Source: a virus
IMG/VR virus record: IMGVR_UViG_3300048537_000020
Span: 1 to 23,398 of that record
Strand: one strand, 5' to 3'
Length of the DNA stretch: 23,398 nt
Below the pieces are notes generated by a model that made no database searches, was not told where the DNA came from, and saw nothing but the letters and a program-made list of their open reading frames with translations. The stretch's first letter is position 1; each line of letters starts with the position of its first letter. Made by a program: the position numbers and the translations under genes. Below are positions 2,960 to 23,398 of the stretch, one piece after another.

Positions 2960-3273
2960 AACGCCGAACAGAACTTCTGGCGATGCTTGGAGCGATTCCG
3001 GAGCTGGGGTTTCTGAAGAGGCGGTCAGCTTGCCCGGAGGATGTCTCTTGTGTTGGCCGCGTACTCCCGGAGGGCATCGCGGTAACGGTGATTGATCCGC
3101 CGAATTGGGGACCTTACGGGGAGGTGTTGCGGCGGAAGAATCACTTCCTCGATGCCCTGTACGCCGCGGTGGCGGCGGGCCATTTCGTGATGAGCGAGGC
3201 GGCTAAACCGAAACCGTCGCGGGGCACGGACAAGTGGTGGTCGCGACGCGAGAGACAGCGGAGGGCAGGGTGA
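2807..3273 (+). repeat. Direct duplication of the terL 3' end (2807-2959 and 3121-3273)
   Basis: Two 153-base copies lie 314 bases apart. By hand comparison, bases 2864-2918 match 3178-3232 without a difference and 2920-2943 match 3234-3257 exactly. The preceding 57 bases (2807-2863 against 3121-3177) carry about 16 differences, mostly at third codon positions. The duplication includes the coupled ribosome-binding region, so each copy ends in a stop that overlaps the next gene's start (ATGA at 2956, GTGA at 3270). Confidence 0.95.
2956..3273 (+). CDS. Small protein made from a duplicated TerL C-terminus
   Basis: 105-residue protein whose last ~50 residues, from EVLRRKNHFLDALYAAVAAG to the C-terminal RRERQRRAG, are almost identical to the end of TerL. 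The first ~55 residues (MKRRTELLAMLGAIPELGF...) have no recognisable domain. The ATG at 2956 overlaps the terL stop (ATGA) and has a GGAG ribosome site at 2946-2949, so it is preferred over an upstream GTG inside terL. Most base differences from terL are synonymous, which suggests the reading frame was kept. It may be a remnant of another phage's terL left by recombination, or a regulator or competitor of TerL assembly. No function can be assigned. Confidence 0.65.
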   Translation: MKRRTELLAMLGAIPELGFLKRRSACPEDVSCVGRVLPEGIAVTVIDPPNWGPYGEVLRRKNHFLDALYAAVAAGHFVMSEAAKPKPSRGTDKWWSRRERQRRAG

Positions 3274-4114: not shown

Positions 4115-5652
4115 CCGCACGCAGCGTGAGAGCGAAAGTCAAGCGAAGCTACCCGGCCGACGCCCTCAGTGCGCGCCGTTGGGAGGCGGCGAAGACCCAC
4201 CGTCTCAACCAGGCCCATTGGCAGAACGCCCGAGAACAATCGGTCAACGTCGACCTCCAGGACTATCTCGCCACGTTGCGGACCCGTTGTACCTACGAAC
4301 GGGACAACAACCCGTTGGTCGACGGAATCGTTTTCACGCACTACGTGGACATTGTCGGTCGAGACGGTCCCGAGCTGCAAGTCCAGAGCGACTCGTCGAC
4401 CTATAACGAGTGGCTCGAAGCGCACTGGCGGAAGTGGTTCAAGGCCCCAACGCCTAACCCGAAGGTTTCCGGCGCTGCTCTCTTGCGGTTGTGGGTTCAA
4501 AGTCTCTGGCGGGCGGGTGAATTCCTTGCCCAGAAGGTGACGGCCAAGGCTGATTCGCTGGTACAGATGCGGTTGCGGCCGATTCATCCGAGACGACTTG
4601 CAACTCCGATGGCGATGGCGGGCCGCGATGACATCGTGATGGGAATTCAGTTTTCGCGTGAAGGCGAACCGCAACGCTACTTCATCCAAGAAGAGCAGGC
4701 GTTCGGAACGCTGGCTTATTCAACGGAAACCGCCTCCATTCCGCCGGATGACATCGTTCACTTCTTCTTGCTTCGTGAAGAGGACCAAGCCCGTGGTTTT
4801 CCGTGGCTTGGCTCCAGTCTCCCATCGACTGCGGACCTTCGTGACTATGACGCCGAGACATTAGAGTCGGCCCGCCAAGCGGCGAACTTGGGCGTTTACT
4901 GGCACACGGTTGACCCCAACGCCCCATATCTTGACGTAAACGAGCAGGAGACTCTTGAACGGGGCACGCAATCGACGGGGCCGCCAGGCTGGCAACCCAA
5001 GATGCTCACGCCGCAACAGCCCACGACGCAATACAGCGAGTTCCACGACGAGCGACTCCGCGAAGTTGGCCGCCCTGTGGCCATGCCTCTGATGGTCATC
5101 AAGCTTGACGCCGGCCAGCACAACTACTCTTCGGCCCGCTTCGATGGTCGGAACTACGACCGGGCTTGTGAAGTGATCCAGTGTGCGATCAGCGGGACGG
5201 CGAAAGCGACTGGTCCACTGAGTGAGCTGGTTGACGACGTGGATCGGGAAGCCGGGCTTTACGAGCGCGCCCAGCGGATGAATCCGCCAGAACGCCCTGA
5301 GGAAGTCACCTACGAGTGGACCTGGTCGCGACCACCGCAAGTGGACCGGGAGAAAGAGTCGGCCGCTGATCGGGCGGACATGGAGATGATGATCGCCTCG
5401 CCTCAGGACATCGCGGCCGCGCGAGGCACGACACTCGACACGCTGATAGCCAAGTTGCAGCGGGCGAATGAGAAGCTCGAAGCCGCTGGCCTGCCGCCGA
5501 TACCCATGATCTTACCCAAGGGCTCAGCGTACGCGCGGCGAGGGGACTTGAAGGCCGCGGCGACTGATGGGCCGACGCCGGTTCCTGGAGATGCAACTGA
5601 CTCAGAAGACGTGGAGGAGACCGATGCCGAAACGGTCAGTAGCAACGACTGA
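4111..5652 (+). CDS. Portal protein, lambda gpB family
   Basis: Forms the dodecameric ring at the capsid vertex through which DNA enters. 513 residues, similar to lambda gpB (533). Characteristic stretches are RTRCTYERDNNPLVDGIVF near residues 52-70, typical of the family's 'R-x-L-x-R-N-N-P' opening, then SGAALLRLWVQSLWRAGEFL, and the C-terminal half RPVAMPLMVIKLDAGQHNYSSARF, the usual conserved 'N-Y-S-S-A-R' region. The ATG at 4111 overlaps the preceding stop and is preferred over an upstream GTG at 4087; a clear ribosome site is absent, so coupling is likely. The acidic C-terminal tail overlaps the start of the next gene. Confidence 0.93.
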   Translation: MTARSVRAKVKRSYPADALSARRWEAAKTHRLNQAHWQNAREQSVNVDLQDYLATLRTRCTYERDNNPLVDGIVFTHYVDIVGRDGPELQVQSDSSTYNEWLEAHWRKWFKAPTPNPKVSGAALLRLWVQSLWRAGEFLAQKVTAKADSLVQMRLRPIHPRRLATPMAMAGRDDIVMGIQFSREGEPQRYFIQEEQAFGTLAYSTETASIPPDDIVHFFLLREEDQARGFPWLGSSLPSTADLRDYDAETLESARQAANLGVYWHTVDPNAPYLDVNEQETLERGTQSTGPPGWQPKMLTPQQPTTQYSEFHDERLREVGRPVAMPLMVIKLDAGQHNYSSARFDGRNYDRACEVIQCAISGTAKATGPLSELVDDVDREAGLYERAQRMNPPERPEEVTYEWTWSRPPQVDREKESAADRADMEMMIASPQDIAAARGTTLDTLIAKLQRANEKLEAAGLPPIPMILPKGSAYARRGDLKAAATDGPTPVPGDATDSEDVEETDAETVSSND

Positions 5653-7927
5653 GCAGCAGTCGCGGGACATCACCTGTCGAACCATCACTACCCGTGCGGA
5701 CACGGTTGACGATGCAACGCGTAGTGTCGAGGCCGTTCTGAGTACGGAAGAGGTGGTGCAGGTCTGGGATTGGTCGCGTTTTCAGGTGATCGACGAGGTC
5801 TTGTTGGCTCGCGGGGCTGAGTTGCCCGATCAAGTCGTGTTGTTGGAGAACCACAGGCGGTGGGAACTTGACGATGTGCTCGGGTCTGTCCGTAATTTGC
5901 GAGTTGAAACCGACACCACCGTTGGCCGGTTGTTTTTTGACGAGGATGAAGGCCGGGCAGAGAAGGCGTGGGGTAAATACCGCAGAGGGCACGTTCGCGA
6001 CGTATCAGTCGGCTACAAGGTCGTCGAGTACGTGGACATTGCCCCCGGACAACGCAAAACGGTTGACGGCAAGGAATATCGGGCCAGAGACCGCGTCTTG
6101 AGGGTTACACAACGCTGGAAGCTTCGCGAGGTGTCGGCAACGCCTATCGGTGCTGATGAAGGCGCGAAGACGAGAACTGACTTCTTACCCATAAAGGAGG
6201 GAAGCTCTATGAACGAGCGCCTTCGCAAGTTCCTGGAGTCCGTAGGGCTCCGATCCGATGCCACCGATGAATTGGCCCAGCAGTTTGCTGATGCCTTGTC
6301 GGGGCGTAGTGCAGAAATCGTCAAGCTCCTCAAGAGCGAAGACGAGACCGACACGTCGACGGTCGCGGTCCGGGGGGCCCTGAGGGCGCTCGGGGTCGAC
6401 CCCGATGACCCATCCAAGACGCTCCCGGAAGAGAATGCTGGTCAGGGCACGGCGAGCCGTGCGGAGGCTGGCGACGGAGCTGGTGGTGAGGCCATCGAGT
6501 CTGTCAATACGCCGACCGTGGACGCTGATGTCATCCGCACCGAAGAGCGGGCACGGTTCGCCATGGTTCAGCGCGTTGGTGGGCAGGATCTCTCCGAAGA
6601 GACGCGAGACCAAGCCGTGCGTGAAGGGTGGGATGAAGCCCGCGTGTCAAGCGCCACGCTTGAAGCGGTCCGCGGGAACCGCTCGGAATCGGTCGGCCCA
6701 GCGATCCACAGCCGAAGTCGCGAGGCCGATTGTACGCGAGAGGCCCTTGGCGCCGCGATGATGATTCGAGAGGGGCTTGATCCGGTTGCGAGGGCCGTTC
6801 GGTTTGACGAGGGCGTTTACGTTCCCCGCCGGGAAGGCGAACGGACGGACCACCTTGAACAGGCGGCTGACCGCGGTTGGGCCTATCGGGATTGGAGTCT
6901 GATCGACTTCTGCCGTGAAGCCTGCCGACTGGACGGTATCACGGTGCCGATGAACCGCAGGGAAGTGATCCGGGCTGCCGTGTCAGGCTCGGCACTGACC
7001 AACATCTTTTCGACGAGCGTCAATGCTCAATTACTGTCTGGCTATACGGACTATGCCGACACCACCGATGGCTGGACCTCAGCGGCCGATGTACCCAACT
7101 TCCAGACCAACGAGCGAATGATGATGGGCAAGTTTGGAGCCCTTCAGAAGCTCGCTCGCGGGAAGACGGCCGAGCATCTTGACGAGTCGGACTCCAAAGA
7201 GGAGTACAAGATTGCCCGATACGCCGGTCAGTTTGTCGTTGACGAGCAAGACATCATCGACGACCGACTCGGAGCGATAAATCAGGTGAGCCCCTCGGAC
7301 ATCGGCTCCTCGGCTGCCCAGCTTCGCCCCAATCTGGTCTATGCCATCCTGCTGGCAAATGCGGCCCTGTCGGACACGGGGTTGTTGTTCAACAGCACGG
7401 CTGAAACCACGGCTGGTGGACACGCAAACTTGTTGCAGGACGCTTACGACGCTGCGGGGATGCAAGCTGGCCTCCTCGCGATGGCCAAGCATCGGATTAG
7501 GACGCGACCGTTGAACATTCGGGCGCGGTATATCCTGGCTCCACAGGATCTCAAGTTTGCGATTCTGGTCAGTCTGAAATCTGCCTCACGTGATTATGAC
7601 GGCACGGAGGGAATTTACAATCCGCTGTACGATTTGGGCATAGAGGCTCGTTTTGACGATCGGTTGGGCGCGGTGGGCGTTGTTGACCCAGCGACCGAGA
7701 CTGCCTATACGGGGTCGGCGACCAATTGGTTTCTTACTGCCCGGCCCGGTGAGAACGGCGCCAAAACGATTGAGGTCGGCTACTTGCGAGGAACGGGGCG
7801 AGCCCCGCAAAGTCGCTCTTTCGTTCTCACTCAAGGTCAATGGGGTATCGGCTGGGACATCAACCTTGATATTGGGGCCAAAGCGCTCGATTATCGTGCG
7901 ATGCAGTATTCGGACGGTACTTCGTAA
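5624..7927 (+). CDS. Fused prohead protease and HK97-fold major capsid protein
   Basis: 767 residues in one frame. Residues ~15-180 match HK97/U35-type prohead proteases, with His77 in LLENHRRW and Ser128 in VRDVSVGY as the expected catalytic pair. Residues ~196-330 are charged and low-complexity, suited to a scaffold or delta domain. From about residue 400 the sequence reads as a major capsid protein (SALTNIFSTSVNAQLLSGY, ILAPQDLKFAILVSLKSASR, then LTQGQWGIGWDINLDIGAKA). The ATG at 5624 has GGAGGAG at 5612-5618. A second, perfect ribosome site lies inside the gene before the in-frame ATG at 6209, so capsid-only subunits may be made in excess. The protease should cleave the scaffold part during maturation. 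Confidence 0.92.
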   Translation: MPKRSVATTEQQSRDITCRTITTRADTVDDATRSVEAVLSTEEVVQVWDWSRFQVIDEVLLARGAELPDQVVLLENHRRWELDDVLGSVRNLRVETDTTVGRLFFDEDEGRAEKAWGKYRRGHVRDVSVGYKVVEYVDIAPGQRKTVDGKEYRARDRVLRVTQRWKLREVSATPIGADEGAKTRTDFLPIKEGSSMNERLRKFLESVGLRSDATDELAQQFADALSGRSAEIVKLLKSEDETDTSTVAVRGALRALGVDPDDPSKTLPEENAGQGTASRAEAGDGAGGEAIESVNTPTVDADVIRTEERARFAMVQRVGGQDLSEETRDQAVREGWDEARVSSATLEAVRGNRSESVGPAIHSRSREADCTREALGAAMMIREGLDPVARAVRFDEGVYVPRREGERTDHLEQAADRGWAYRDWSLIDFCREACRLDGITVPMNRREVIRAAVSGSALTNIFSTSVNAQLLSGYTDYADTTDGWTSAADVPNFQTNERMMMGKFGALQKLARGKTAEHLDESDSKEEYKIARYAGQFVVDEQDIIDDRLGAINQVSPSDIGSSAAQLRPNLVYAILLANAALSDTGLLFNSTAETTAGGHANLLQDAYDAAGMQAGLLAMAKHRIRTRPLNIRARYILAPQDLKFAILVSLKSASRDYDGTEGIYNPLYDLGIEARFDDRLGAVGVVDPATETAYTGSATNWFLTARPGENGAKTIEVGYLRGTGRAPQSRSFVLTQGQWGIGWDINLDIGAKALDYRAMQYSDGTS
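6193..6211 (+). promoter_or_regulatory. Internal ribosome-binding site and in-frame start for capsid-only product
   Basis: AAAGGAGG at 6193-6200 lies 8 bases before ATG 6209, which is codon 196 of the fusion and in frame. Initiation here would give a 572-residue protein starting MNERLRKFLESVGL, lacking the protease domain. The spacing and strength are better than at most gene starts in the window. Confidence 0.75.
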
Positions 7928-9347: not shown

Positions 9348-9856
9348 TCCAAACCATCAAAGGACCGTTTACGGCCGGCGTATTTGGCCTCACCCGCCTG
9401 GTGGCCGAGAGTGCGGCCTTTCAGCGGCGGACGAAGGCTGAGGACTGGAAGACCGCACAGGACCATATTGAGCAGTGGGGATACCAAGCGTGGGAATCAG
9501 GCGGTCTGGCGGCCCTGGTCGTCAAGACGGAGCAGCCGCGGGCAGCGATCTGGCCGGCGTCTCGGGTTGAGCTGACTCAGTACGCGGGCGGTGACCATAA
9601 CTATCTGAAAGGCGGCGGGAGCCTGACGTGGGTTTTGGCGGATGCTGATCGGTATGCACCAGCGGCAAGAGACAAGTCAGCGGCGGACTTTGCAGCATGG
9701 GTTGACGAAGTGCTCCAGGACATTCGGCACAACGCAGGGCGGGATGATCGGTTGGGGGTGTACCAGATCGGGCTCTTGCTGCCGTTTGCCCACTCGTCGG
9801 TTAGGGTGAACGCCTCGTATTGGCAAGTGGTGTTCGTTGTGGACTGGAGGGCGTGA
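9344..9856 (+). CDS. Probable head-tail/tail completion protein
   Basis: 170 residues starting at the ATG that overlaps the preceding stop; a longer frame from 9287 would run deep into that gene. No family recognised with confidence. The N-terminal half is mixed helix and strand (WKTAQDHIEQWGYQAWESG), and the C-terminal half ends in VNASYWQVVFVVDWRA, a strand-rich ending. Its place between connector and HK97 gp10-like genes suggests a tail terminator or completion role (lambda gpZ/gpU position). Inference from gene order. Confidence 0.55.
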   Translation: MIQTIKGPFTAGVFGLTRLVAESAAFQRRTKAEDWKTAQDHIEQWGYQAWESGGLAALVVKTEQPRAAIWPASRVELTQYAGGDHNYLKGGGSLTWVLADADRYAPAARDKSAADFAAWVDEVLQDIRHNAGRDDRLGVYQIGLLLPFAHSSVRVNASYWQVVFVVDWRA

Positions 9857-10353: not shown

Positions 10354-11292
10354 ATGCCAGGTACGACCAAGCAGTTCTACCTGCACGGGATTCTGCTTCC
10401 CGGTTCCGTGTGGATCGGTGAGCTAACCGACACGACGCCGGCGGCAAACGTGACTTTCCTCGACGGCTTCGCGGCTGGCAGTGCAGTTGTTCCGAGCTTC
10501 CGCGGCGGCCAAGGGGCAACGCCCGATATCTCGTTCACTTCGCCGCAACTCAAGACGATTCTTGACCAGTGCGGGATGACGGGACTCGACTGTTCCGCAA
10601 GTCAGATTGATCTTTTCTACCGGAAGGCAAAGATTCTTGACACGCGTGAGGCGATCGCATCGGCTGCTCATTTGCGGGTGCGGGCTAAGCGGTGTTTGCT
10701 TTACTGGACCTCCATCCAAGCCCAGCAAGGCCAGCCTGCGACGATCTCTTGCCGCATCGTGCCGACGTTTGACGGTACGAATGATCCGCTTGTCGGTCTG
10801 GGCAGTCAGGCCATTGCGGCGAATCTCTTGGCCGAGCAACACTTCACCCTCGGCCCTGTAAAACTCAATGGATCATGGGTCGACGGCGTGCAGGGGTGGA
10901 ACCTGGATCTTGGCGTTCAGCTCAACGAGAAACAGTCGGACGGCCAGACGTACCCGACCTTTGTGGGCGTGCGCCAGCACAATCCCGTCTTGACCGTCAC
11001 AACGCCCGACGCGGACTACTGGGCGTCGCCGGGTGTGGCTGGAACTGCGGTGACTGCCCTTCTGGCGTATCTCCGCAAGAAGGACGACGACGCGACGGGG
11101 AACCTGACGGACGTGACGGCGTCCCACATCCAGTTTTCAAACGCCGAAAACCCGGCTGGCTTGGCTACCGTGGAGAACAGCACGGGCGGGATTGATGATG
11201 AGGCCAGCCTTGATTTGAGGATCGGTCTGCGGATTTCGTCGGCCAACACGGCCCACCCGCTGGCGGTCAACACAGCAATCGCTATTTCATAG
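10354..11292 (+). CDS. Putative major tail (tube) protein
   Basis: 312 residues, beta-rich, with no membrane segment. It lies where lambda places gpV, after the completion genes and before the chaperone and tape measure. N-terminal part KQFYLHGILLPGSVWIGEL, a long middle with FYRKAKILDTREAIASAAHL, and a Thr/Asn-rich C-terminal part (GIDDEASLDLRIGLRISSAN) are consistent with a structural virion protein. GGAGG at 10341-10345 precedes ATG 10354. No invariant tube motif was identified, so a minor tail or decoration protein remains possible. Confidence 0.55.
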   Translation: MPGTTKQFYLHGILLPGSVWIGELTDTTPAANVTFLDGFAAGSAVVPSFRGGQGATPDISFTSPQLKTILDQCGMTGLDCSASQIDLFYRKAKILDTREAIASAAHLRVRAKRCLLYWTSIQAQQGQPATISCRIVPTFDGTNDPLVGLGSQAIAANLLAEQHFTLGPVKLNGSWVDGVQGWNLDLGVQLNEKQSDGQTYPTFVGVRQHNPVLTVTTPDADYWASPGVAGTAVTALLAYLRKKDDDATGNLTDVTASHIQFSNAENPAGLATVENSTGGIDDEASLDLRIGLRISSANTAHPLAVNTAIAIS

Positions 11293-16328: not shown

Positions 16329-18512
16329 GTGGCCGATCCCAGCCCCATCACTCTCTCTGACGACATCGTCCGCACGGCGCAGACGGCGGCCGTCTATCTT
16401 CGGCAATTCTGGGCGGGCACTTGGACTGAAAAGCCGTTTCTCTACTGCGATTCTGCCTCGTGGGTCGCGAGTCCCAGCATTGCCTCGGCTCAGCTCTCTT
16501 GGACCTACGGCCGCGGTGTTCGGCAGGATGAAACCACGGTGGGTACGGTTACCCCTCTGAGTATCGAGGGCTGGTGGGTCAAGATTGTCTTTGACCAGGG
16601 GGATGATGACGACCTGCTGTGGTACGGCTTCGTCGATGAAGTGACGCGTCACATGGGCGGGGATCTCGTTGTCGCGAGCGCCCGAGTGGCGACCGGGCAC
16701 CAGACGTTTTTGTGTCGGGGCATGGAGGCTTTGCTTGATCGTCACATAGTGCGCTCGGCCTGGTGTGCGGACGGCACGGCCGAGGCCCAGATACACCGGG
16801 GACTAGAATTCAACGCGCCCAATCGGTCGGACGACGCCGGCAACAGATCGGCGGCCATCGGACCGCGCGGGTTCCACCTGTTTTCCGATAATCTCACGAC
16901 GGCCAACAAGTGGGCAACGCGGCACATTCTCGACTATCTCTTGGAGTACCATGCTCCACGCGACCGCCAGGGCGCAAAGGCCGTCACGTTCAAGACGCAT
17001 TTTGACGCCAGCCTGTATTTGCCAAACTGGGACACTCCGCGGCTCGCCTCGCATGGCCGGACAACGAAGCATCTCTTAGACGCAATCATGGATCGGCGTC
17101 GAGGATTGTCTTACGTGGTGGAGGTCGACTCGGACACAGAAGAGGTGATGATCCGGCCGTGTAAGTTTCTCGATACAGACATTTCCGTTTCGGGCGGGCA
17201 TGTTCTCAATCAGAGCAACGCGCAAAAGTCCGTTGATTTTCAGCAAACTCCAGACGTAGCGTCTGCAATGCTTCGATCGGTGGCTGGGCGAACGTATCAT
17301 CAAGTGGCGGCCTTCGGTCGACAGATGATCGTGTGCGAGACGATTCGCGAGGGCGCTGGGTCGATCGTTGCCCACTGGAACACGGGGGCTCTTCAGACAG
17401 CGTACAACGCGGGGGCATCGGGCGAGGGCGACTACCCCGCAGCAGCGAATCGGACGGAACGTAGGCAACGGAACATCGAGTGGCGGAGTGCTGAAACGTA
17501 TTCGCGGGTTTACAGTCACTTTGGCCCAGATGATTCCTGGGATTCGGCCATCCAAACCAATCAAGTGGTATACGCTGACCTTGGCTTGAACTTCCAGACC
17601 GACTATCTCTTTTATCGGCCAACCCAGCGCTTTGAGCGAACGCTGCCTCTGAAGACCGATCACGTCTACCCGACAGCTCACGTTGGTGGGTTGACGCTGG
17701 CAAGCGTGACCGACAACACGCCGTCAGGCAAGGCTTGGGAGTACCTTCGCCCAATCGTGGCGATGACGCTACACGATGACTTGCCGGGAACGAGCAGCAA
17801 GTGGGCCGAAGTCGACAAGCTGTCAGTGGCGGCTGGAGTCGAAGGAACTGGCGATGGGCACGGCAGGACGTTCGGTTGCTCCGTCCGAATGCAAAACGAT
17901 GCCCTGGGGTTTGTCCTCAAGGTCCACGGCGCCCCGCAGTGGGCGATTGCCAAGACGGATTTCACGGCACCCGATGATTCGGATCTTGGAGGTACTTATC
18001 ACCCTATCGGCGATTACGACTGGAAGGATGACCTTGCAGCCACCGTCGCCAGCAAAGCGGACTATTTTGTCAGCTCAGCCTATCCGGAGACAGTGACGGC
18101 CCAAACCGATGCACTCCGCGTCTTGTACCTTGACGCATCGGCAAAGGCGGGGCTGGAGATCCTTGTTGACGACACGATGGTTGACGTACAGGACGGGGAC
18201 CGTGTCGAAAGCGGAAGCTCCACCTATTACATCAGGGACGATCGGGAGATGCTCGAACAGATCGCTCGGATTGCTCACGAGTGGTACGCCGTGGTTCGCC
18301 AAACGTTGTCTGTGACGTGGAACCAAATCGAGAATGCTGGGCTGTTTTCGATCGGTGACCTCATCACGACAATCGGAGCCGACGAAACCGAGGAAGACGT
18401 TCGGACAGTCATCACGTCAATTCGGATTGCCATGGCCCAGAGTGACCAGCAGTTCAATCGGCTAACCATCGAGACGCAGTGGGCCGACCTTGACCTTGTA
18501 GGAATGTATTGA
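16329..18512 (+). CDS. Large tail-tip / baseplate hub-like protein
   Basis: 727 residues from a GTG three bases after the preceding stop. No transmembrane segment. The N-terminal ~130 residues (SAQLSWTYGRGVRQDETTVG, WWVKIVFDQGDDDDLLWYGF) resemble the first beta domain of phage hub proteins, which bind the tail tube; the C-terminal end (ENAGLFSIGDLITTIGADET, RTVITSIRIAMAQSDQQFNR) is like the recurrent strand region of that class. By order it would match the gp27-like hub or lambda gpJ position. Fold assignment is tentative; a receptor-binding role is possible. Confidence 0.5.
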   Translation: MADPSPITLSDDIVRTAQTAAVYLRQFWAGTWTEKPFLYCDSASWVASPSIASAQLSWTYGRGVRQDETTVGTVTPLSIEGWWVKIVFDQGDDDDLLWYGFVDEVTRHMGGDLVVASARVATGHQTFLCRGMEALLDRHIVRSAWCADGTAEAQIHRGLEFNAPNRSDDAGNRSAAIGPRGFHLFSDNLTTANKWATRHILDYLLEYHAPRDRQGAKAVTFKTHFDASLYLPNWDTPRLASHGRTTKHLLDAIMDRRRGLSYVVEVDSDTEEVMIRPCKFLDTDISVSGGHVLNQSNAQKSVDFQQTPDVASAMLRSVAGRTYHQVAAFGRQMIVCETIREGAGSIVAHWNTGALQTAYNAGASGEGDYPAAANRTERRQRNIEWRSAETYSRVYSHFGPDDSWDSAIQTNQVVYADLGLNFQTDYLFYRPTQRFERTLPLKTDHVYPTAHVGGLTLASVTDNTPSGKAWEYLRPIVAMTLHDDLPGTSSKWAEVDKLSVAAGVEGTGDGHGRTFGCSVRMQNDALGFVLKVHGAPQWAIAKTDFTAPDDSDLGGTYHPIGDYDWKDDLAATVASKADYFVSSAYPETVTAQTDALRVLYLDASAKAGLEILVDDTMVDVQDGDRVESGSSTYYIRDDREMLEQIARIAHEWYAVVRQTLSVTWNQIENAGLFSIGDLITTIGADETEEDVRTVITSIRIAMAQSDQQFNRLTIETQWADLDLVGMY

Positions 18513-19126
18513 TGCCGAGCGAGCAGTGGATGCGCGACGTTCAAGCAGAGCTGGCCGCGCTGCGTCGGCACGTGGAGCAGTTGCAGGACCGGGCGCCGGT
18601 GGCGTGTGAGAGTTCGCAGATACGGTTAGCGCAGACTGTGGAGAAAAGTGGAACCACCTACCCGATTGATGGTAGCGGCGCCGATACGTTTTGGTTCGTT
18701 TTCGTCGATGCGACATTCACCGAGGCGCAAGGCAACCAGACGCCGACTTACAAAACGAACCAGCCGACGACGGCGCCCATGTACTTGGCGCACTGCATCG
18801 AGGGCGCGTGGTATCCCGAGAGCAGCCGTGTGTGGGTGGCGTGGCAAAACGGCCGATGGTGGATCATTGGCAAGGTCGGCTATCAGGCCCGGTGGATCAC
18901 GTTCGTAGTCAACGACGCAACCGGCTTCAGCACGACCGACGCCTCCGTCACTGTCGACGGCGTGGCCTACTTCGACGGCTACGAGCCGGCGAGCCCTGTC
19001 ACGACGGTCTACAATCTCGCGATCAGCGCGAACCGCCTTTTTGAGGGCGACGATGACGACGTTGGTATGGCGATTTACGACCCGGCTGGGGACAAGTATC
19101 ACATCTTCCAAATGGAGTGCCCTTGA
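18512..19126 (+). CDS. Tail-tip/fibre protein with N-terminal coiled coil
   Basis: 204 residues; the ATG at 18512 overlaps the hub stop (TGATG). An N-terminal coiled coil (DVQAELAALRRHVEQLQDR) suggests a trimer. The rest is beta-rich (YPIDGSGADTFWFVFVDATF; WVAWQNGRWWIIGKVGYQAR), as in short tail fibres or tip adaptors. The TTGACG of the next module's promoter overlaps this gene's stop codon, so the HNH module begins immediately at its end. Confidence 0.6.
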   Translation: MPSEQWMRDVQAELAALRRHVEQLQDRAPVACESSQIRLAQTVEKSGTTYPIDGSGADTFWFVFVDATFTEAQGNQTPTYKTNQPTTAPMYLAHCIEGAWYPESSRVWVAWQNGRWWIIGKVGYQARWITFVVNDATGFSTTDASVTVDGVAYFDGYEPASPVTTVYNLAISANRLFEGDDDDVGMAIYDPAGDKYHIFQMECP

Positions 19127-19150
19127 CGTGGTGCCTTATTATAATAGAAT
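19123..19150 (+). promoter_or_regulatory. Promoter of the HNH module
   Basis: TTGACG (19123-19128), 16 bases, then TAGAAT (19145-19150), overlapping an AT-rich TTATAATAGAAT run in otherwise GC-rich DNA. The -35 overlaps the upstream stop codon. It should start transcription near 19157, at the base of the hairpin below. Confidence 0.6.
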
Positions 19151-19152
19151 GC

Positions 19153-19184
19153 GAGCAGCCGAGAGGATGCACTCTCGACTGCTC
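19153..19184 (+). promoter_or_regulatory. Hairpin in the HNH 5' leader
   Basis: GAGCAG-C-CGAGAG (19153-19165), six-base loop, CTCTCG-A-CTGCTC (19172-19184): 12 pairs with one C/A mismatch. No T-run follows, so it is not a terminator. It sits between the promoter and the ATG at 19221 and could stabilise or control the mRNA. Confidence 0.6.
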
Positions 19185-19220
19185 TTGCCACAACGCAACC
19201 CTAACAGGGAGGGTCACATC

Positions 19221-19778
19221 ATGGCTACGCGGAAGTCTACCACGAAACAGATCCCCTTGCCAGTCGAAACGTCCCGCCGCTTCGCTCGCATTCCAGAATG
19301 GTCAGGCTATGCCGCCAGCGATGATGGACACATTTGGTCATCGAAATCTGGTAGATGGACACGCTTGAGCGACACACCAGATCGCGCCGGAAGACCACGC
19401 GCAACATTGTATGACCAGGGCCTTATACACCGAGTCATTGTGTGCCGCTTGATCTTGCTGGCATTTGTGGGCTCGTGTTCTTCTGGCCAAGAATGCCGCC
19501 ATCTCGACGGCGATCCAGCAAACAACAACATTGAGAATCTCCAGTGGGGTACGCGTTCAGAGAATCACCACGATGCTATACGACATGGTACCCATACTTG
19601 CCTATCTGGCGAGCGGCATCCTGCTAGGCGCGTTACTGCATCAATGGCCAGCGACATGGTCCGATTGGCCAAGATCATGCCGCGCAAGATGATAGCTTCA
19701 CACCTCGGAGTCTCTTACGCAACGGTCTGTCGCTATCTTCGTCGAAGTTTACATACACAGGCCGCGTTCAATGAGTAG
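19221..19778 (+). CDS. HNH homing-type endonuclease with NUMOD4-like and HTH parts
   Basis: 185 residues. Near residues 22-40, RIPEWSGYAASDDGHIWSS fits the NUMOD4 motif of phage homing nucleases. HRVIVCRLILLAFVG leads into the HNH_3 core CRHLDGDPANNNIENLQWG...SEN at about residues 90-113, with the His/Asn residues expected for a beta-beta-alpha metal site. Near residues 140-173, SDMVRLAKIMPRKMIASHLG with VSYATVCRYLRR reads as a helix-turn-helix. AGGGAGGG precedes the ATG; an earlier in-frame ATG (19041) lies inside the upstream gene. It has its own promoter and leader hairpin. By hand, 31 of 60 bases are G+C at 19561-19620 against 39 of 60 at 18961-19020, consistent with transfer. Confidence 0.88.
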   Translation: MATRKSTTKQIPLPVETSRRFARIPEWSGYAASDDGHIWSSKSGRWTRLSDTPDRAGRPRATLYDQGLIHRVIVCRLILLAFVGSCSSGQECRHLDGDPANNNIENLQWGTRSENHHDAIRHGTHTCLSGERHPARRVTASMASDMVRLAKIMPRKMIASHLGVSYATVCRYLRRSLHTQAAFNE

Positions 19779-20319
19779 GGTTCGCCGAACTTGGCACCGC
19801 CTGCGAAGCGGCCTGTATGTTCCGCGATTGCTGCGCCGCGTACACCGGAACGAATGGGGTGGGCTGTGGTATCCGTTCTGTGACTTTCCGTGCGAAGCGA
19901 ACGGCGATTGTCACGATTTGACGACAAGCGACACGGTAGATGTAGGCTTCGACGAAACGGCGTTTGCCAACAACTATTGCAGCGACTGCGAACTGCTGGA
20001 GCCGCCTTACACTCTTACCTGGAGCATTCCGGACGCTGCGTGGGTGTATTCAACTGGCACGATCTGCGACAGCCTCGATATTCTATTCTGGCCCAGGTGC
20101 GATCCCGGCGGCGCATACAGCGGGGATTGTGTGGCGCGGGTGGAAATCGTATTTATGACCGGCGCATACGGCACCTTCTACTATTACCAAGACACCTACG
20201 ACCCCGAAGAGCGCACGAGCTGGACGATCCCGTTTGACAGCGCGCCCGCAAGCGATCCCACCTACGGCCCGTGCGATGACGAGGCATATCCCAGTGAGGT
20301 AACGGTCACGAAGAACTGA
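19771..20319 (+). CDS. Cys-rich beta protein of the tail region, unknown
   Basis: 182 residues. A basic start (SRVRRTWHRLRSGLYVPRLL) is followed by Cys clusters (CDFPCEANGDC; NYCSDCELL) and an acidic, strand-rich C-terminus (ARVEIVFMTGAYGTFYYYQD). The ATG overlaps the end of the HNH gene; before HNH insertion it would have followed the tail-tip gene directly. Cysteines could bind metal or form disulphides in the virion. No family recognised. Confidence 0.6.
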   Translation: MSRVRRTWHRLRSGLYVPRLLRRVHRNEWGGLWYPFCDFPCEANGDCHDLTTSDTVDVGFDETAFANNYCSDCELLEPPYTLTWSIPDAAWVYSTGTICDSLDILFWPRCDPGGAYSGDCVARVEIVFMTGAYGTFYYYQDTYDPEERTSWTIPFDSAPASDPTYGPCDDEAYPSEVTVTKN

Positions 20320-20732
20320 TGCACGACTGCACACCGGTATTGACTGACGGCGAGTGGGTTTGTTCCCATTGCGGGTTTGGCAAGGGCAAGGGGCGCGACG
20401 AGCCTTTTCGGAAGAATTGTGTTGCGACCACCGACGATCGCTCGATACTTGAGCGTGACGACGGAGCGTCAATGCCTCCCCTCCGTCGCCAAGCATGGAA
20501 CCTCGCCTCCGCTCTTGCTGCGTTCGTCGCGGATGGATGCTGGACACTGACCGCTGACCAGTATCGTGAGCGGCTGGTCGTCTGCGATACATGCGAGCAC
20601 CGTCGCCGCAACCGCTGTAGGAAGTGCGGTTGCCGATTAGCGATCAAGGCTAAAGGCCGGGCGTTCAGATGCCCGGAGGACAGATGGCCGAATCTGGAGC
20701 ACAGCGAATCACCAACGCAATCGCCGAGCTAG
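20319..20732 (+). CDS. Zinc-ribbon protein, unknown
   Basis: 137 residues. The N-terminus has CTPVL...VCSHCGFGKGK; the C-terminal half has CDTCEHRRRNRCRKCGCRL followed by CPEDRWP, a C-x2-C ... C-x2-C-x-C pattern seen in small phage proteins that end in 'C-P-x-x-x-W'. The ATG overlaps the previous stop (TGATG at 20317-20321). Its 3' end overlaps the next gene by 49 bases. Metal binding is likely; role unknown. Confidence 0.65.
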   Translation: MHDCTPVLTDGEWVCSHCGFGKGKGRDEPFRKNCVATTDDRSILERDDGASMPPLRRQAWNLASALAAFVADGCWTLTADQYRERLVVCDTCEHRRRNRCRKCGCRLAIKAKGRAFRCPEDRWPNLEHSESPTQSPS

Positions 20733-20929
20733 AATCCAACGGCTTGGCCACACGGCCGTGGGCGATGGCCGGGCTCAATCTCTCCCTTTGCCAGAAGTGC
20801 CCGGAGTGGATGGGCAGCGGGTGTTTTGAGGTGAGTTTGGAGCCTGGAAAGTTCGCAGAGTTTCTCGTCAACGCAAAGCGGAACTGCCCGCGGTGGGAGG
20901 AGCTTCACCAGCGCATTACTCTGGAATGA
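20684..20929 (+). CDS. Small Cys-containing protein, unknown
   Basis: 81 residues from ATG 20684, three bases after GGAGGA; an in-frame ATG at 20669 would add five residues and cannot be excluded. A helical start (AQRITNAIAELESNGLATR) precedes CQKCPEWMGSGC and NCPRWEEL, four cysteines suited to one zinc. It overlaps the previous gene at its 5' end and the minus-strand gene by 14 bases at its 3' end, so two transcripts converge here. Confidence 0.55.
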   Translation: MAESGAQRITNAIAELESNGLATRPWAMAGLNLSLCQKCPEWMGSGCFEVSLEPGKFAEFLVNAKRNCPRWEELHQRITLE

Positions 20930-21455
20930 GCCAATCGTCCGTCATCTCTCGTTGGGGTGCAAAAACTTCTGCCGTATCCCACCCTGGGCGGCCAGGCTGA
21001 TCGACAATGCGATCGACGAACTCCAGTATTGCTCGTCCCTTGAAATCATGGAAGGCTATACCATTTCCCCATCCGCTATTAACGACCATCAAACGCTTAC
21101 GGCCAGTGATGTCGTAGAGGTACAATCCAGGTACGCGATCGACTTTGCCCAGTCGGTCAAACCCGAGTCTGAGTAGAATTCTGCCAGCCCTATCCCGAAG
21201 GATGAAGCCTTCAGCCTCCACGATCGTCGGTTGTAGAGACGGCTGTGGAGGCGGGGTTGGACTAGGCTTGACCGAACGGAGTTGGGCCACGTCGTCAGAG
21301 AGTTGAGAGATGCGGGACTCCAAAGTGACGATTTGCTGCTGTGCTGTTGCATCAGCGCGATGAATGGCGCGGCCCGCTATGGCACAGAGGAGCAGCAAGA
21401 CAAGAAGGGTGCAGGCGAAAAGTAATGCCAAGACGATGACCGAGCGTTTCTGCAT
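20916..21455 (-). CDS. Membrane-anchored protein with repeated D-x-x-G beta motifs
   Basis: 179 residues, the only convincing minus-strand gene. Residues ~5-29 are a strongly hydrophobic signal anchor (SVIVLALLFACTLLVLLLLC). A short coiled coil follows (QQQIVTLESRISQLSDDVAQ), then a proline-rich linker, then three repeats of a beta unit: EGFILRDRAGRILLRLGF, GLYLYDITGRKRLMVV, GIAFHDFKGRAILEFV. This 'F-x-L-x-D-x-x-G-R' repeat recurs in bacterial, notably planctomycete-type, surface proteins. GGGAGGG lies just upstream of its ATG. Orientation and its own promoter suggest expression in the lysogen (a moron), perhaps changing the cell envelope. A spanin-like lysis role seems less likely, as no partner is visible. 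Confidence 0.75.
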   Translation of the reverse strand: MQKRSVIVLALLFACTLLVLLLLCAIAGRAIHRADATAQQQIVTLESRISQLSDDVAQLRSVKPSPTPPPQPSLQPTIVEAEGFILRDRAGRILLRLGFDRLGKVDRVPGLYLYDITGRKRLMVVNSGWGNGIAFHDFKGRAILEFVDRIVDQPGRPGWDTAEVFAPQREMTDDWLIPE

Positions 21456-21491
21456 TCTCTGCCCTCCCTGTCATTCGCTCCCACCGCCAGC

Positions 21492-21521
21492 ATCTTAGCC
21501 GGAATCCCGTCCCTCTGTCCA
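21492..21521 (-). promoter_or_regulatory. Promoter of the minus-strand membrane gene
   Basis: Read on the minus strand: TGGACA, 18 bases, TAAGAT, ending about 37 bases before the ATG. Hexamers differ from consensus by one and two bases; the spacer is one base long. Confidence 0.45.
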
Positions 21522-21943
21522 GCCCTCCTGTCCTGATCGGGCTCCTTCGGCCGATCCTCCGGCCTGCCAGGGCCCGCAACAGAGGCCGTCCTGGGGCGTC
21601 TGGCGGGGCGTCCGCGCGGACAAGGGATTGTCCCTTGTGGTGTCCCCAGTGTCCCCACGCTAAGTGCTGTAGCTGGCCTGGTTTAGCATCGGGCGCCGGC
21701 ACTTGAAATGTCCCCAGTGTCCCCAGGGCTGTCCCTCAAGATGTCCTCACCCCCCGGCTCTGGAGCCCGGCGCGCGCCGCCTAAGCCGGTCCGGACGGCC
21801 GCTCTGCGCCGCCTGACCCGGCGCCCGGGGCGGATTCCGGCCGCTGCCTGCGGATTCCGGGAAATTCCCGTCGCCGTAACTGCCTATCTGGCGGGGACTT
21901 CTGACTATTTCCCCGAAATCCCCGGAATTATCCCCGTAGCCTA

Positions 21944-21971
21944 TAGACACACGGGGCCGATTGGCTACAAT
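21944..21971 (+). promoter_or_regulatory. Promoter of the small-gene operon
   Basis: TAGACA (21944-21949), 16 bases, TACAAT (21966-21971), both one base from consensus. Transcription from about 21978 would give a ~70-base leader containing the first leader element. TCCCCG repeats directly upstream could bind a regulator. Confidence 0.65.
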
Positions 21972-22002
21972 GAGGACATGGACAGGACAAAAACCAACAC
22001 GA

Positions 22003-22050
22003 CACGGGGCACTCGCCGACTGAGAGAGTCGGAGGCAAAGGGAGAACGAG
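22003..22050 (+). ncRNA. Leader element copy A, upstream of the gene at 22051
   Basis: Conserved flank CACGGGGCACTCG, a hairpin CCGACT-GAGAG-AGTCGG (22016-22032), then GGCAAAGGGAGAACGAG holding the ribosome site, directly before the ATG. A nearly identical copy lies at 22223-22269, with two compensatory base-pair changes in the stem. CTCG (22012-22015) could also pair with CGAG (22047-22050). No known family recognised. Confidence 0.65.
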
Positions 22051-22215
22051 ATGATGACCGACCCCACAAACGAAGGCATGACCTTTTTTTCGGTTCGCCG
22101 CATCGACAGCGAGGAAACCCCTGAACATGAATACGAATGCCTAGACGAGGGCTGTGCCCGACTGCTTGCGGCTGGCGAGCACGGTGGTGATCCGGAAGAC
22201 TATGAGGTGATTTGA
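22051..22215 (+). CDS. Small acidic protein, unknown
   Basis: 54 residues (MMTDPTNEGMTFFSVRRIDS..., ending GGDPEDYEVI), too short for most gene finders. Acidic, with two cysteines. The ribosome site AAAGGGAG sits inside leader element A, six bases before the ATG. A second ATG follows at once. Together with the next gene it forms a leader-plus-short-gene pattern repeated twice. Function unknown. Confidence 0.6.
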   Translation: MMTDPTNEGMTFFSVRRIDSEETPEHEYECLDEGCARLLAAGEHGGDPEDYEVI

Positions 22216-22222
22216 CCCATCC

Positions 22223-22269
22223 CACGGGGCACTCGCCCGCTGAGTGAGCGGGGGCAAAGGGAGAACGAG
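22223..22269 (+). ncRNA. Leader element copy B, upstream of the gene at 22273
   Basis: Same layout as copy A: flank CACGGGGCACTCG, hairpin CCCGCT-GAGTG-AGCGGG (22236-22252), then GGCAAAGGGAGAACGAG. The 13-base left and 17-base right flanks are identical to copy A, while stem positions 3 and 4 change as pairs (G-C to C-G, A-T to G-C). It starts eight bases after the stop of the preceding gene. Confidence 0.65.
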
Positions 22270-22272
22270 AAC

Positions 22273-22524
22273 ATGACGACTGAACAGCGACAACAACTTG
22301 AAACCGCGATCGGTGGCTATCTGTCTTCGGCCAGGAACCCTTGCGGCGTAGAGTTCTACCACGAACCGGAGAGTGACACACCTTGGCGGATCGCCGACGA
22401 TCATGCAGAGGAATCGTACGCGACGTTTGAGGACCTGCTTGCGGCCACGGCAGACTGGAAAAGGGCGTTTGACGCCGACGAGGCGTTCGAGGCCACACAA
22501 GAGCAGCTTGGCCTTTCTGACTAA
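22273..22524 (+). CDS. Small acidic protein, unknown
   Basis: 83 residues, acidic and mainly helical (TEQRQQLETAIGGYLSSARN; YATFEDLLAATADWKRAFDA). No family recognised. Its ribosome site AAAGGGAG belongs to leader element B. It is probably in one operon with the 54-residue gene and the HTH gene. Small acidic phage proteins of this kind sometimes inhibit host enzymes; that is speculation here. Confidence 0.6.
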   Translation: MTTEQRQQLETAIGGYLSSARNPCGVEFYHEPESDTPWRIADDHAEESYATFEDLLAATADWKRAFDADEAFEATQEQLGLSD

Positions 22525-22528
22525 CTCC

Positions 22529-22629
22529 CTGGGGCGCCGGTACGCCTGGCCCAGGCGGGCGGCTCCGGGCACCGGCACGGGGCCAGCAATGGCCATCCGA
22601 GCAACGTGTGGCCGCCTGCGGCGCCCCAG
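22529..22629 (+). other. GC-rich, strongly foldable intergenic segment
   Basis: CTGGGGCGCC (22529-22538) pairs perfectly with GGCGCCCCAG (22620-22629). Inside, GCGGGCGGC (22556-22564) pairs with GCCGCCTGC (22611-22619) with one G-T pair, and GGCC-AGCAAT-GGCC (22581-22594) forms a local hairpin. The 101-base unit fills the gap before the HTH gene. It could be a structured leader RNA or a palindromic repeat. No known family recognised. Confidence 0.55.
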
Positions 22630-22650
22630 CCTACTTGATGAGGACCAAGG

Positions 22651-22875
22651 ATGTCAAAACACTACAGCCCCACCCCCGCCGGCCTACGCAAGGCACGTGA
22701 GTCCAAGTTCCCCTCGCAGGACGCACTCGCCGAAGCACTCGGCTGGGCTCGGGAAGAGGTCAACGCAGTCGAATGTAGTCGCAAGGCGATCGGCCTCAAA
22801 CGGCTGCACAAATGGGCCGCGGCGTGCGGCTGCGAGGTCCGGCTGGTCCCGATCGACAGAATGACGGGAGGATAG
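22651..22875 (+). CDS. Helix-turn-helix (Xre/Cro-like) protein
   Basis: 74 residues. LRKARESKFPSQDALAEALG is a typical first part of a Cro/C1-type HTH, followed by WAREEVNAVECSRKAIGLKR as the recognition helix and next helix, ending in LHKWAAACGCEVRLVPID, the common 'helix plus strand' tail of Xre-type antitoxin-like and Cro-like proteins. The ATG follows AGGA by about eight bases. It may regulate the small-gene operon or the control region upstream. A type II antitoxin is an alternative, as the next gene overlaps in operon fashion, but that gene shows no toxin motif. Confidence 0.7.
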   Translation: MSKHYSPTPAGLRKARESKFPSQDALAEALGWAREEVNAVECSRKAIGLKRLHKWAAACGCEVRLVPIDRMTGG

Positions 22876-22877
22876 CC

Positions 22878-23120
22878 GTGCTGGTGAAGCTCAGCAAGCG
22901 GGAGATCGGCCGTGTCTGCCAATCGCTCCGATTGGCGATCGAGTATCAGGAATCGAAGATCGACGCTCACACCACGACGGTCCGCAGAGGCGGCACTCTG
23001 GTCTCGCAAACAGTATCGGGACAAGCGGCCTTCGTGCGCCGGTGGCGTCGTGACATCGCAGCGTTTCAGCGACTTATAAAAGACCTCAAAGCCGCGCTAC
23101 AGCCGATCGACGGGGCTTGA
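22878..23120 (+). CDS. Small basic helical protein, unknown
   Basis: 80 residues from GTG 22878, with GGGAGGA at 22866-22872 and a two-base gap from the HTH gene, so the pair is co-translated. Helical and basic (LSKREIGRVCQSLRLAIEYQ; RRWRRDIAAFQRLIKDLKAA). No family recognised. It is the last gene before the attachment-site candidate. Its pairing with the HTH gene is the only clue to function. Confidence 0.6.
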   Translation: MLVKLSKREIGRVCQSLRLAIEYQESKIDAHTTTVRRGGTLVSQTVSGQAAFVRRWRRDIAAFQRLIKDLKAALQPIDGA

Positions 23121-23260
23121 CGGCCGGCTCGGCACTCGTCAGAATGCCCGTGCTGGCTCTTCTCAGAAGGTCACGCTGAGGGACATCTAGCTCCCTCTGA
23201 CGCGGGGCGACATCCGCTCCATTCTACCGGCGATTCTCGCCCAAAGTGATCAGCACCTCG

Positions 23261-23307
23261 CGAGGCTCATAACCTCGAGGTCCTAGGTTCGAATCCTAGC
23301 CCCGCCA
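23261..23307 (+). tRNA. 3' part of a CAT-anticodon tRNA; att core candidate
   Basis: Anticodon arm CGAGG-CTCATAA-CCTCG (23261-23277, anticodon CAT at 23268-23270), variable loop AGGTC, T arm CTAGG-TTCGAAT-CCTAG (23283-23299), acceptor 3' strand CCCCGCC and discriminator A at 23307. All pair correctly, but the D arm and the matching GGCGGGG 5' acceptor are absent directly upstream. The anticodon stem lacks the three G-C pairs of initiator tRNA, so elongator Met or Ile2 is likely. A 3' fragment is what integration into a tRNA gene leaves at one prophage end. Confidence 0.8.
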
Positions 23308-23310
23308 CTT

Positions 23311-23379
23311 CCGGGAGTCGGGGGTGTCCGCAAGGTCCCCACGGGTTCCATTTGCCGGTGTCCCGCGAACACGGCTCCC
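23311..23379 (+). other. Imperfect long inverted repeat after the tRNA fragment
   Basis: CCGGGAG (from 23311) pairs with CTCCCGG (to 23379), and a second block, TGTCCGC near 23326, pairs imperfectly with GCGAACA further inside. If the tRNA fragment is the prophage end, this is host DNA just downstream of the original tRNA gene. No T-run follows. Role unknown. Confidence 0.35.
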
Positions 23380-23398
23380 GGGACTTCTTGACATTTAT

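Follow-up and report, generated by a model that had tools for sequence, protein, structure and literature searches.

Candidate start-associated RNA leaders with variable hairpin stems before unrelated small genes in two related phages

We found that a 23,398-base stretch of viral DNA (IMG/VR record IMGVR_UViG_3300048537_000020, positions 1 to 23,398; the whole stretch is henceforth referred to as the window) carries two ~47-base elements directly before two small genes. Our preferred explanation, which we hold with moderate confidence, is that both are copies of a start-associated translation-initiation leader, i.e., a cis-acting module placed before unrelated small phage genes of early type. 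A role at the translation start is the simplest reading because the stem of the hairpin pairs yet varies, the loop is fixed, the ribosome site is conserved beyond what pairing with 16S rRNA needs, the distance to the AUG is constant and the genes that follow are unrelated. In the mRNA, the leader would fold into a hairpin whose stem need only pair while its loop and flanks stay fixed, followed by an extended Shine-Dalgarno sequence at a set distance from the AUG; at the head of unrelated small genes of an early-type operon, it would act in cis on translation initiation. We infer that the leader acts at initiation, as part of the mRNA, and, more tentatively, that the constant loop and the extended ribosome site are read together by a factor of the phage or the host, in which case the carrier genes would be expressed together.

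Origin of the window and its probable host

The window encodes a GpA-type terminase, a lambda-family portal, a capsid protein, a cement protein and a tape measure protein. Relatives of its terminase in bacterial genomes were found mainly in Planctomycetota, which makes a planctomycete host a reasonable guess: the host is probably a member of this phylum, and the planctomycete phage setting in which the elements had originally been placed agrees with these terminase relatives. The closest relative of the window (L004) has a terminase that is 82% identical, and its alignability to the window is lost at ~18.9 kb, before the region of the twin elements. Separately, the 3' end of the terminase gene of the window is locally duplicated (2805-2959 and 3119-3273; 86% over 155 nt), the duplication leading to a zinc-ribbon-like ORF at 3234.

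Twin elements share their flanks and their distance to the start codon

The twin elements, the genes behind them and the nearest predicted promoter are as follows.

21944-21971 (+): promoter-like site TAGACA-16-TACAAT ahead of copy 1, predicted by a consensus scan (10/12 matches)
22003-22015 (+): left flank of copy 1, CACGGGGCACTCG, same letters in copy 2
22016-22032 (+): hairpin of copy 1, CCGACT-GAGAG-AGTCGG, with a 6-bp stem present in the MFE structure of local folds
22034-22050 (+): right flank of copy 1, GGCAAAGGGAGAACGAG, with the Shine-Dalgarno sequence AAAGGGAG, same letters in copy 2
22051-22215 (+): small gene 1 (53-54 aa), from the ORF list, starting at ATG 22051 or, in the register of copy 2, at ATG 22054
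22223-22235 (+): left flank of copy 2, CACGGGGCACTCG, 7 nt past the stop codon of gene 1
22236-22252 (+): hairpin of copy 2, CCCGCT-GAGTG-AGCGGG, with a 6-bp stem of altered letters present in local folds
22253-22269 (+): right flank of copy 2, GGCAAAGGGAGAACGAG, with the Shine-Dalgarno sequence, same letters in copy 1
22273-22524 (+): small gene 2 (83 aa), from the ORF list

Copy 1 (22003-22050) thus reads CACGGGGCACTCG-CCGACT GAGAG AGTCGG-A-GGCAAAGGGAGAACGAG and copy 2 (22223-22269) reads CACGGGGCACTCG-CCCGCT GAGTG AGCGGG-GGCAAAGGGAGAACGAG. The two lie 220 nt apart, and their differences are concentrated in the stem and one base of the loop, which has the form GAGNG in both. The original prediction of two ~47-base elements with identical flanks was exact in coordinates and sequences, and it also correctly placed the ribosome site of the next gene in the right flank, where the Shine-Dalgarno sequence forms part of the repeat. 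The likeness between the copies extends to the start codon, with ATGAC conserved, and then ends; counted from the first base of the right flank, ATG 22054 and ATG 22273 both lie at 20 nt. When the window was compared with itself by BLAST, the elements appeared as a 56-nt match (E = 6e-10), and chance repetition can be excluded because dinucleotide-shuffled windows contained on average only 0.03 exact 17-mer repeats. No third match to the right flank was found within the window at up to 3 mismatches.

The two downstream proteins had been described as unrelated, which agrees with the finding that they gave no local alignment to each other at E <= 100. Neither small gene had a match in Pfam or PHROGs, gene 2 had no relatives in viral contigs or phage records, and our searches returned no credible relatives of either protein; the leader before gene 1 nonetheless suggests that this is a real gene. 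Within the 2 kb scanned for promoters we found three promoter-like sites (0.4 expected), and since the best of these lies just upstream of copy 1, this copy is probably located in a true 5' leader. The proposal that the elements regulate an early operon in cis therefore draws support from the Shine-Dalgarno sequence in the flank, the promoter-like site upstream and the unrelated genes, and is weakened by the lack of homologous copies elsewhere (see below). Further downstream, an HTH_3-like gene lies 126 nt past gene 2, and the genes at 22651 and 22875 are without the element.

The same end of the window has several other features. The repeat GTCCCCAGTGTCCCCA occurs in two copies 68 nt apart (21634-21725), with a third, weaker copy at 23318. 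The G+C-rich intergenic stretch before the HTH gene (22525-22635) has a long predicted fold closed by CTGGGGCGCCG/CGGCGCCCCAG (-68.8 kcal/mol, z -1.5). The 3' part of a tRNA-Met gene, which matches phage tRNA-Met genes and is possibly an attachment site, is present at 23254-23310, where ARAGORN reported no complete tRNA.

Pairing and folding of the twin hairpins

In the register of the hairpin, two base pairs are changed on both sides between the copies, and the original prediction had read these changes as two substitutions that both preserve pairing. While the 6-bp stem is indeed present in both copies, the count of paired substitutions depends on the alignment: MAFFT aligned the 3' arms with one T deleted plus an A-to-G change instead of two paired substitutions. 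Furthermore, a stem of at least 6 bp was kept in 3.8% of trials in which copy 1 was randomly edited (four substitutions and one deletion), and, given the changes in the 5' arm, 4 of the 126 possible 3' repairs restored a 6-bp stem. As the covariation is alignment-dependent, comes from only two copies and has to be set against stem survival by chance, it hints at selection for pairing and is suggestive, not strong.

Compared with shuffled sequences, neither element was unusually stable (z = -1.45 and -0.23), as can be expected of so short a hairpin. The predicted accessibility of the ribosome site was slightly higher in the twins (0.48 and 0.60) than the mean of the other window genes (0.45), a prediction that does not decide between recognition by a factor and a passive structure. 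On paper, the CUC of the left flank could also pair with the GAG of the loop to give a compact pseudoknot, and a closing pair CUCG/CGAG could form; the bases involved are invariant.

Searches for further copies of the window element

No Rfam covariance model matched the window at its gathering score, and the weak scores obtained were at chance level, in line with the original reading, which did not recognise a known family. Patterns combining the two flanks, or the left flank with the loop, found nothing in IMG/VR viral contigs, and patterns of the window element found nothing in GTDB contigs. The right flank alone had one match in the viral contigs (L003 819-835), in another phage lineage; we rejected it as a further copy, as its hairpin is different, its start codon is not in register and the match is likely due to chance. 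A sequence model (R1) produced only weak scores in 17 genomes of terminase relatives, 49 phage records and 392 sampled Planctomycetota genomes, and its six best matches among the last were not leader-like. The contig of the window ends 1.1 kb past copy 2. On the basis of these searches, the letters of the window element appear, so far, to be private to this phage. The original prediction had conceded that an absence of further copies with paired changes in related phages would count against it, and this is in part what we found: no homologous copies were detected in the viral and GTDB contigs, the 49 phage records or the 392 Planctomycetota genomes.

A related phage carries ten leaders of this design

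A scan of related phage records for repeats preceding start codons led us to record IMGVR_UViG_3300045952_000348 (henceforth G053), whose terminase is 43% identical to that of the window. Its leader region is as follows.

17312-22915 of the record (L124:7312-10000 and L125:1-2915): leader region with ten headed genes

Between 17368 and 22915, each of ten genes in a row carries CCTGGAGCAC(G/A) at exactly 4 nt from its ATG, on the upstream side. The ten proteins show no mutual similarity, and the nine that were scanned against Pfam yielded one clear family (DUF3560). A hairpin with a GATCAG loop is found in 9 of the 10 leaders, with the loop invariant in all nine, and every one of the seven GATCAG hairpins in the whole record that has at least 6 contiguous stem pairs lies inside these leaders. 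The arms are mostly 9-11 bp long and variable in sequence, and the linker between the hairpin and the Shine-Dalgarno sequence is of variable length and, in most copies, rich in pyrimidines.

To count pairs, we used a fixed register running outward from the loop, as MAFFT alignment slides the stems. Six distinct versions of the stem were found, with both-sided changes at 11 out of 11 pair positions. With one out-of-register copy set aside, 96% of cells were paired, and with this copy included, 85%; neither value was reached in any of 5000 column shuffles, a result that is not to be read as a probability since the shuffle ignores the kinship of the copies. When arms were swapped between different hairpins, they were mostly unpaired. 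Selection acting on an RNA hairpin whose loop is recognised would be expected to leave such a pattern.

No Rfam covariance model matched the G053 leaders. A loose pattern of the motif matched 96 viral stretches, and among the 80 listed G053 was the only one with more than one match; one match in a planctomycete genome was discarded, as it had no hairpin.

Among the sequences studied here, G053 makes the strongest case for a start-associated RNA leader; its claim is stronger than that of the window, and it is also the better test case. The two sets of leaders are unrelated in sequence and have a design in common, meaning that applying the G053 evidence to the window element is an argument by analogy. 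The original prediction of selection on RNA structure is right in kind, in that the ten leaders of the same design, with their clearly covarying stem, support a start-associated element acting at the level of RNA. It was overstated with regard to covariation in the twins, which are ambiguous when taken alone, and is better supported by G053 than by the window.

Repeated leaders in other relatives

Two other relatives of the window have repeated leaders. One of them (L042) carries twin leaders (9740-9819 and 10895-10979) with the hairpin GGGGAAA-TGAAAGG-TTTCCCC directly at the start codon, and a further hairpin lies upstream of each, its GCGGATGCGGCCGCTGAA core conserved and its outer stems different. 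The other (L159) has three cassettes on its minus strand (~5280-5385, 5650-5760 and 6018-6126 of the reverse complement) before small genes, each consisting of a promoter-like AT-rich stretch, the hairpin CAGAC-ACGA-GTCTG, whose stem is invariant, and a G-rich ribosome site. Repeats before starts in four more records were rejected as leader hairpins, being terminators in one (L126) and G+C-rich arrays in the others (L034, L049 and L056). Judging by these sequences, repeated leaders seem not to be rare among the relatives, with strong covariation found in G053 only.

Alternative explanations

A serious rival to a trans-acting factor, and a variant of the explanation preferred here, is that the element is purely structural: with no binder involved, the hairpin would shield the 5' end of the mRNA or keep the ribosome site apart from structure upstream of it, in the manner of T7 gene 10 leaders. 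We regard this variant as possible, if doubtful. It accommodates a stem that is free to vary and hairpins that lie upstream of a linker and Shine-Dalgarno sequence in both phages, but it needs neither an invariant loop (in G053, GATCAG in 9/9 such hairpins; in the window, GAGNG in both copies) nor conservation beyond the Shine-Dalgarno sequence. Because it is the loop and the extended ribosome site that stay constant and the stem that is free to change, we consider their recognition by a trans-acting factor somewhat likelier than a purely passive role.

We think it unlikely that the twins reflect plain local duplication, in which a leader and start were copied, the gene behind one of them was replaced by recombination and the pairing is partly due to chance. 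Such an event would suit a pair of copies only 220 nt apart, on a contig with another local duplication of ~155 nt (2805-2959 / 3119-3273), and a 6-bp stem is retained by chance in 3-4% of cases. It sits less well with a likeness that ends at ATGAC before proteins that share nothing, or with differences concentrated in the stem and one loop base, and a single duplication cannot explain the ten-copy analogue in G053. Of the original argument that simple gene duplication is unlikely, the part concerning the unrelated proteins stands, whereas duplication of the leader is still viable in view of the other duplication on the contig.

A transcription signal, i.e., a terminator, attenuator or nut-like antitermination hairpin between genes, is improbable. 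The hairpins are intergenic, two of those in G053 pass a loose terminator scan, and box B of lambda, which occurs in early operons, likewise combines a constant loop with a stem free to vary between phages. However, no terminator-like site was found in 21400-23398, the window elements lack the G+C-rich hairpin followed by a T run of a Rho-independent terminator, and neither of the box A-like matches in the window is near the elements, as it would be in a lambda-type nut site; in addition, copy 1 comes first in the operon, and nut sites are not arranged as ten copies joined to ribosome sites. A DNA operator, i.e., an inverted repeat bound as a duplex by a dimeric repressor, has an equally small chance and fits poorly because duplex binding should fix the half-sites, whereas in both phages the half-sites vary and the loop is fixed, even though gene 2 is followed, at 126 nt, by an HTH_3-like gene and later work puts promoters, and possibly a regulator's site, into cluster K ESAS (see below; PMC11373665).

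If the elements are indeed translation-initiation leaders, their design suggests a little-studied form of phage control over the start of protein synthesis, and should a factor read them, phages would be able to mark their own mRNAs for translation. A much more speculative extension, which we consider rather unlikely, is that this terminase lineage uses a genome-specific "start code", in which each phage would have its own hairpin with a private loop and an extended ribosome site before many unrelated early genes, read by a phage-encoded translation factor, resulting in class-wise translation of viral mRNAs.

Comparison with known systems

The leaders of the window and G053 resemble lambda nut sites in being small hairpins with a fixed loop and a variable stem in early operons. 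Nut sites differ in that they are not fused to a ribosome site and are not repeated before each gene, and the window elements have no box A nearby.

Phages have been known since 2011 to carry repeated start-associated sequences, with no function proven; in the best-known set, pairing at the RNA level was considered unsupported. Specifically, the SAS/ESAS of cluster K mycobacteriophages are 13-bp ribosome-site repeats of unknown function, half of them with an upstream inverted repeat (PMC3203893). The ESAS are 17-bp imperfect inverted repeats of conserved sequence, whose changes, according to the 2011 authors, do not support RNA pairing (PMC3203893); later work located promoters, and possibly the site of a regulator, within them (PMC11373665), and the function of SAS/ESAS is still unverified (PMC12699233). 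The likeness to our leaders lies in a repeat that covers the ribosome site, is conserved beyond it and stands a few nt before the ATG of unrelated, non-structural genes; in both the window and G053 we found such a conserved ribosome-site repeat at a fixed distance of a few nt before the ATG of unrelated genes. The sequences differ, as the cluster K 13-bp consensus GGGATAGGAGCCC was not found before the starts at up to 2 mismatches, and the six window matches at up to 3 mismatches equal the number expected by chance, none being near the elements. Unlike the 17-bp, sequence-conserved repeats of the ESAS, the arms of the window (6 bp) and G053 (mostly 9-11 bp) vary while pairing and loop stay.

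In Microbacterium cluster EF phages, a 13-bp ribosome-site repeat in ten copies, accompanied by a weaker upstream motif, is thought to be regulatory, and the passages that describe it mention no hairpin (PMC7302621). Its sequence is unrelated to that of the window: the consensus GGGAAAGGACCCC had four window matches at up to 3 mismatches (9.7 by chance), none near the elements. As the window element fits neither of the two sequence definitions and has variable arms, it would appear to act like SAS/ESAS and the cluster EF repeats without being a member of either set. We view the leader as an analogue of cluster K SAS/ESAS for which there is the RNA-hairpin evidence reported to be lacking there: with ten fixed-loop leaders and both-sided stem changes in G053, and the same design in other letters in the window, the RNA-structure hypothesis becomes directly testable.
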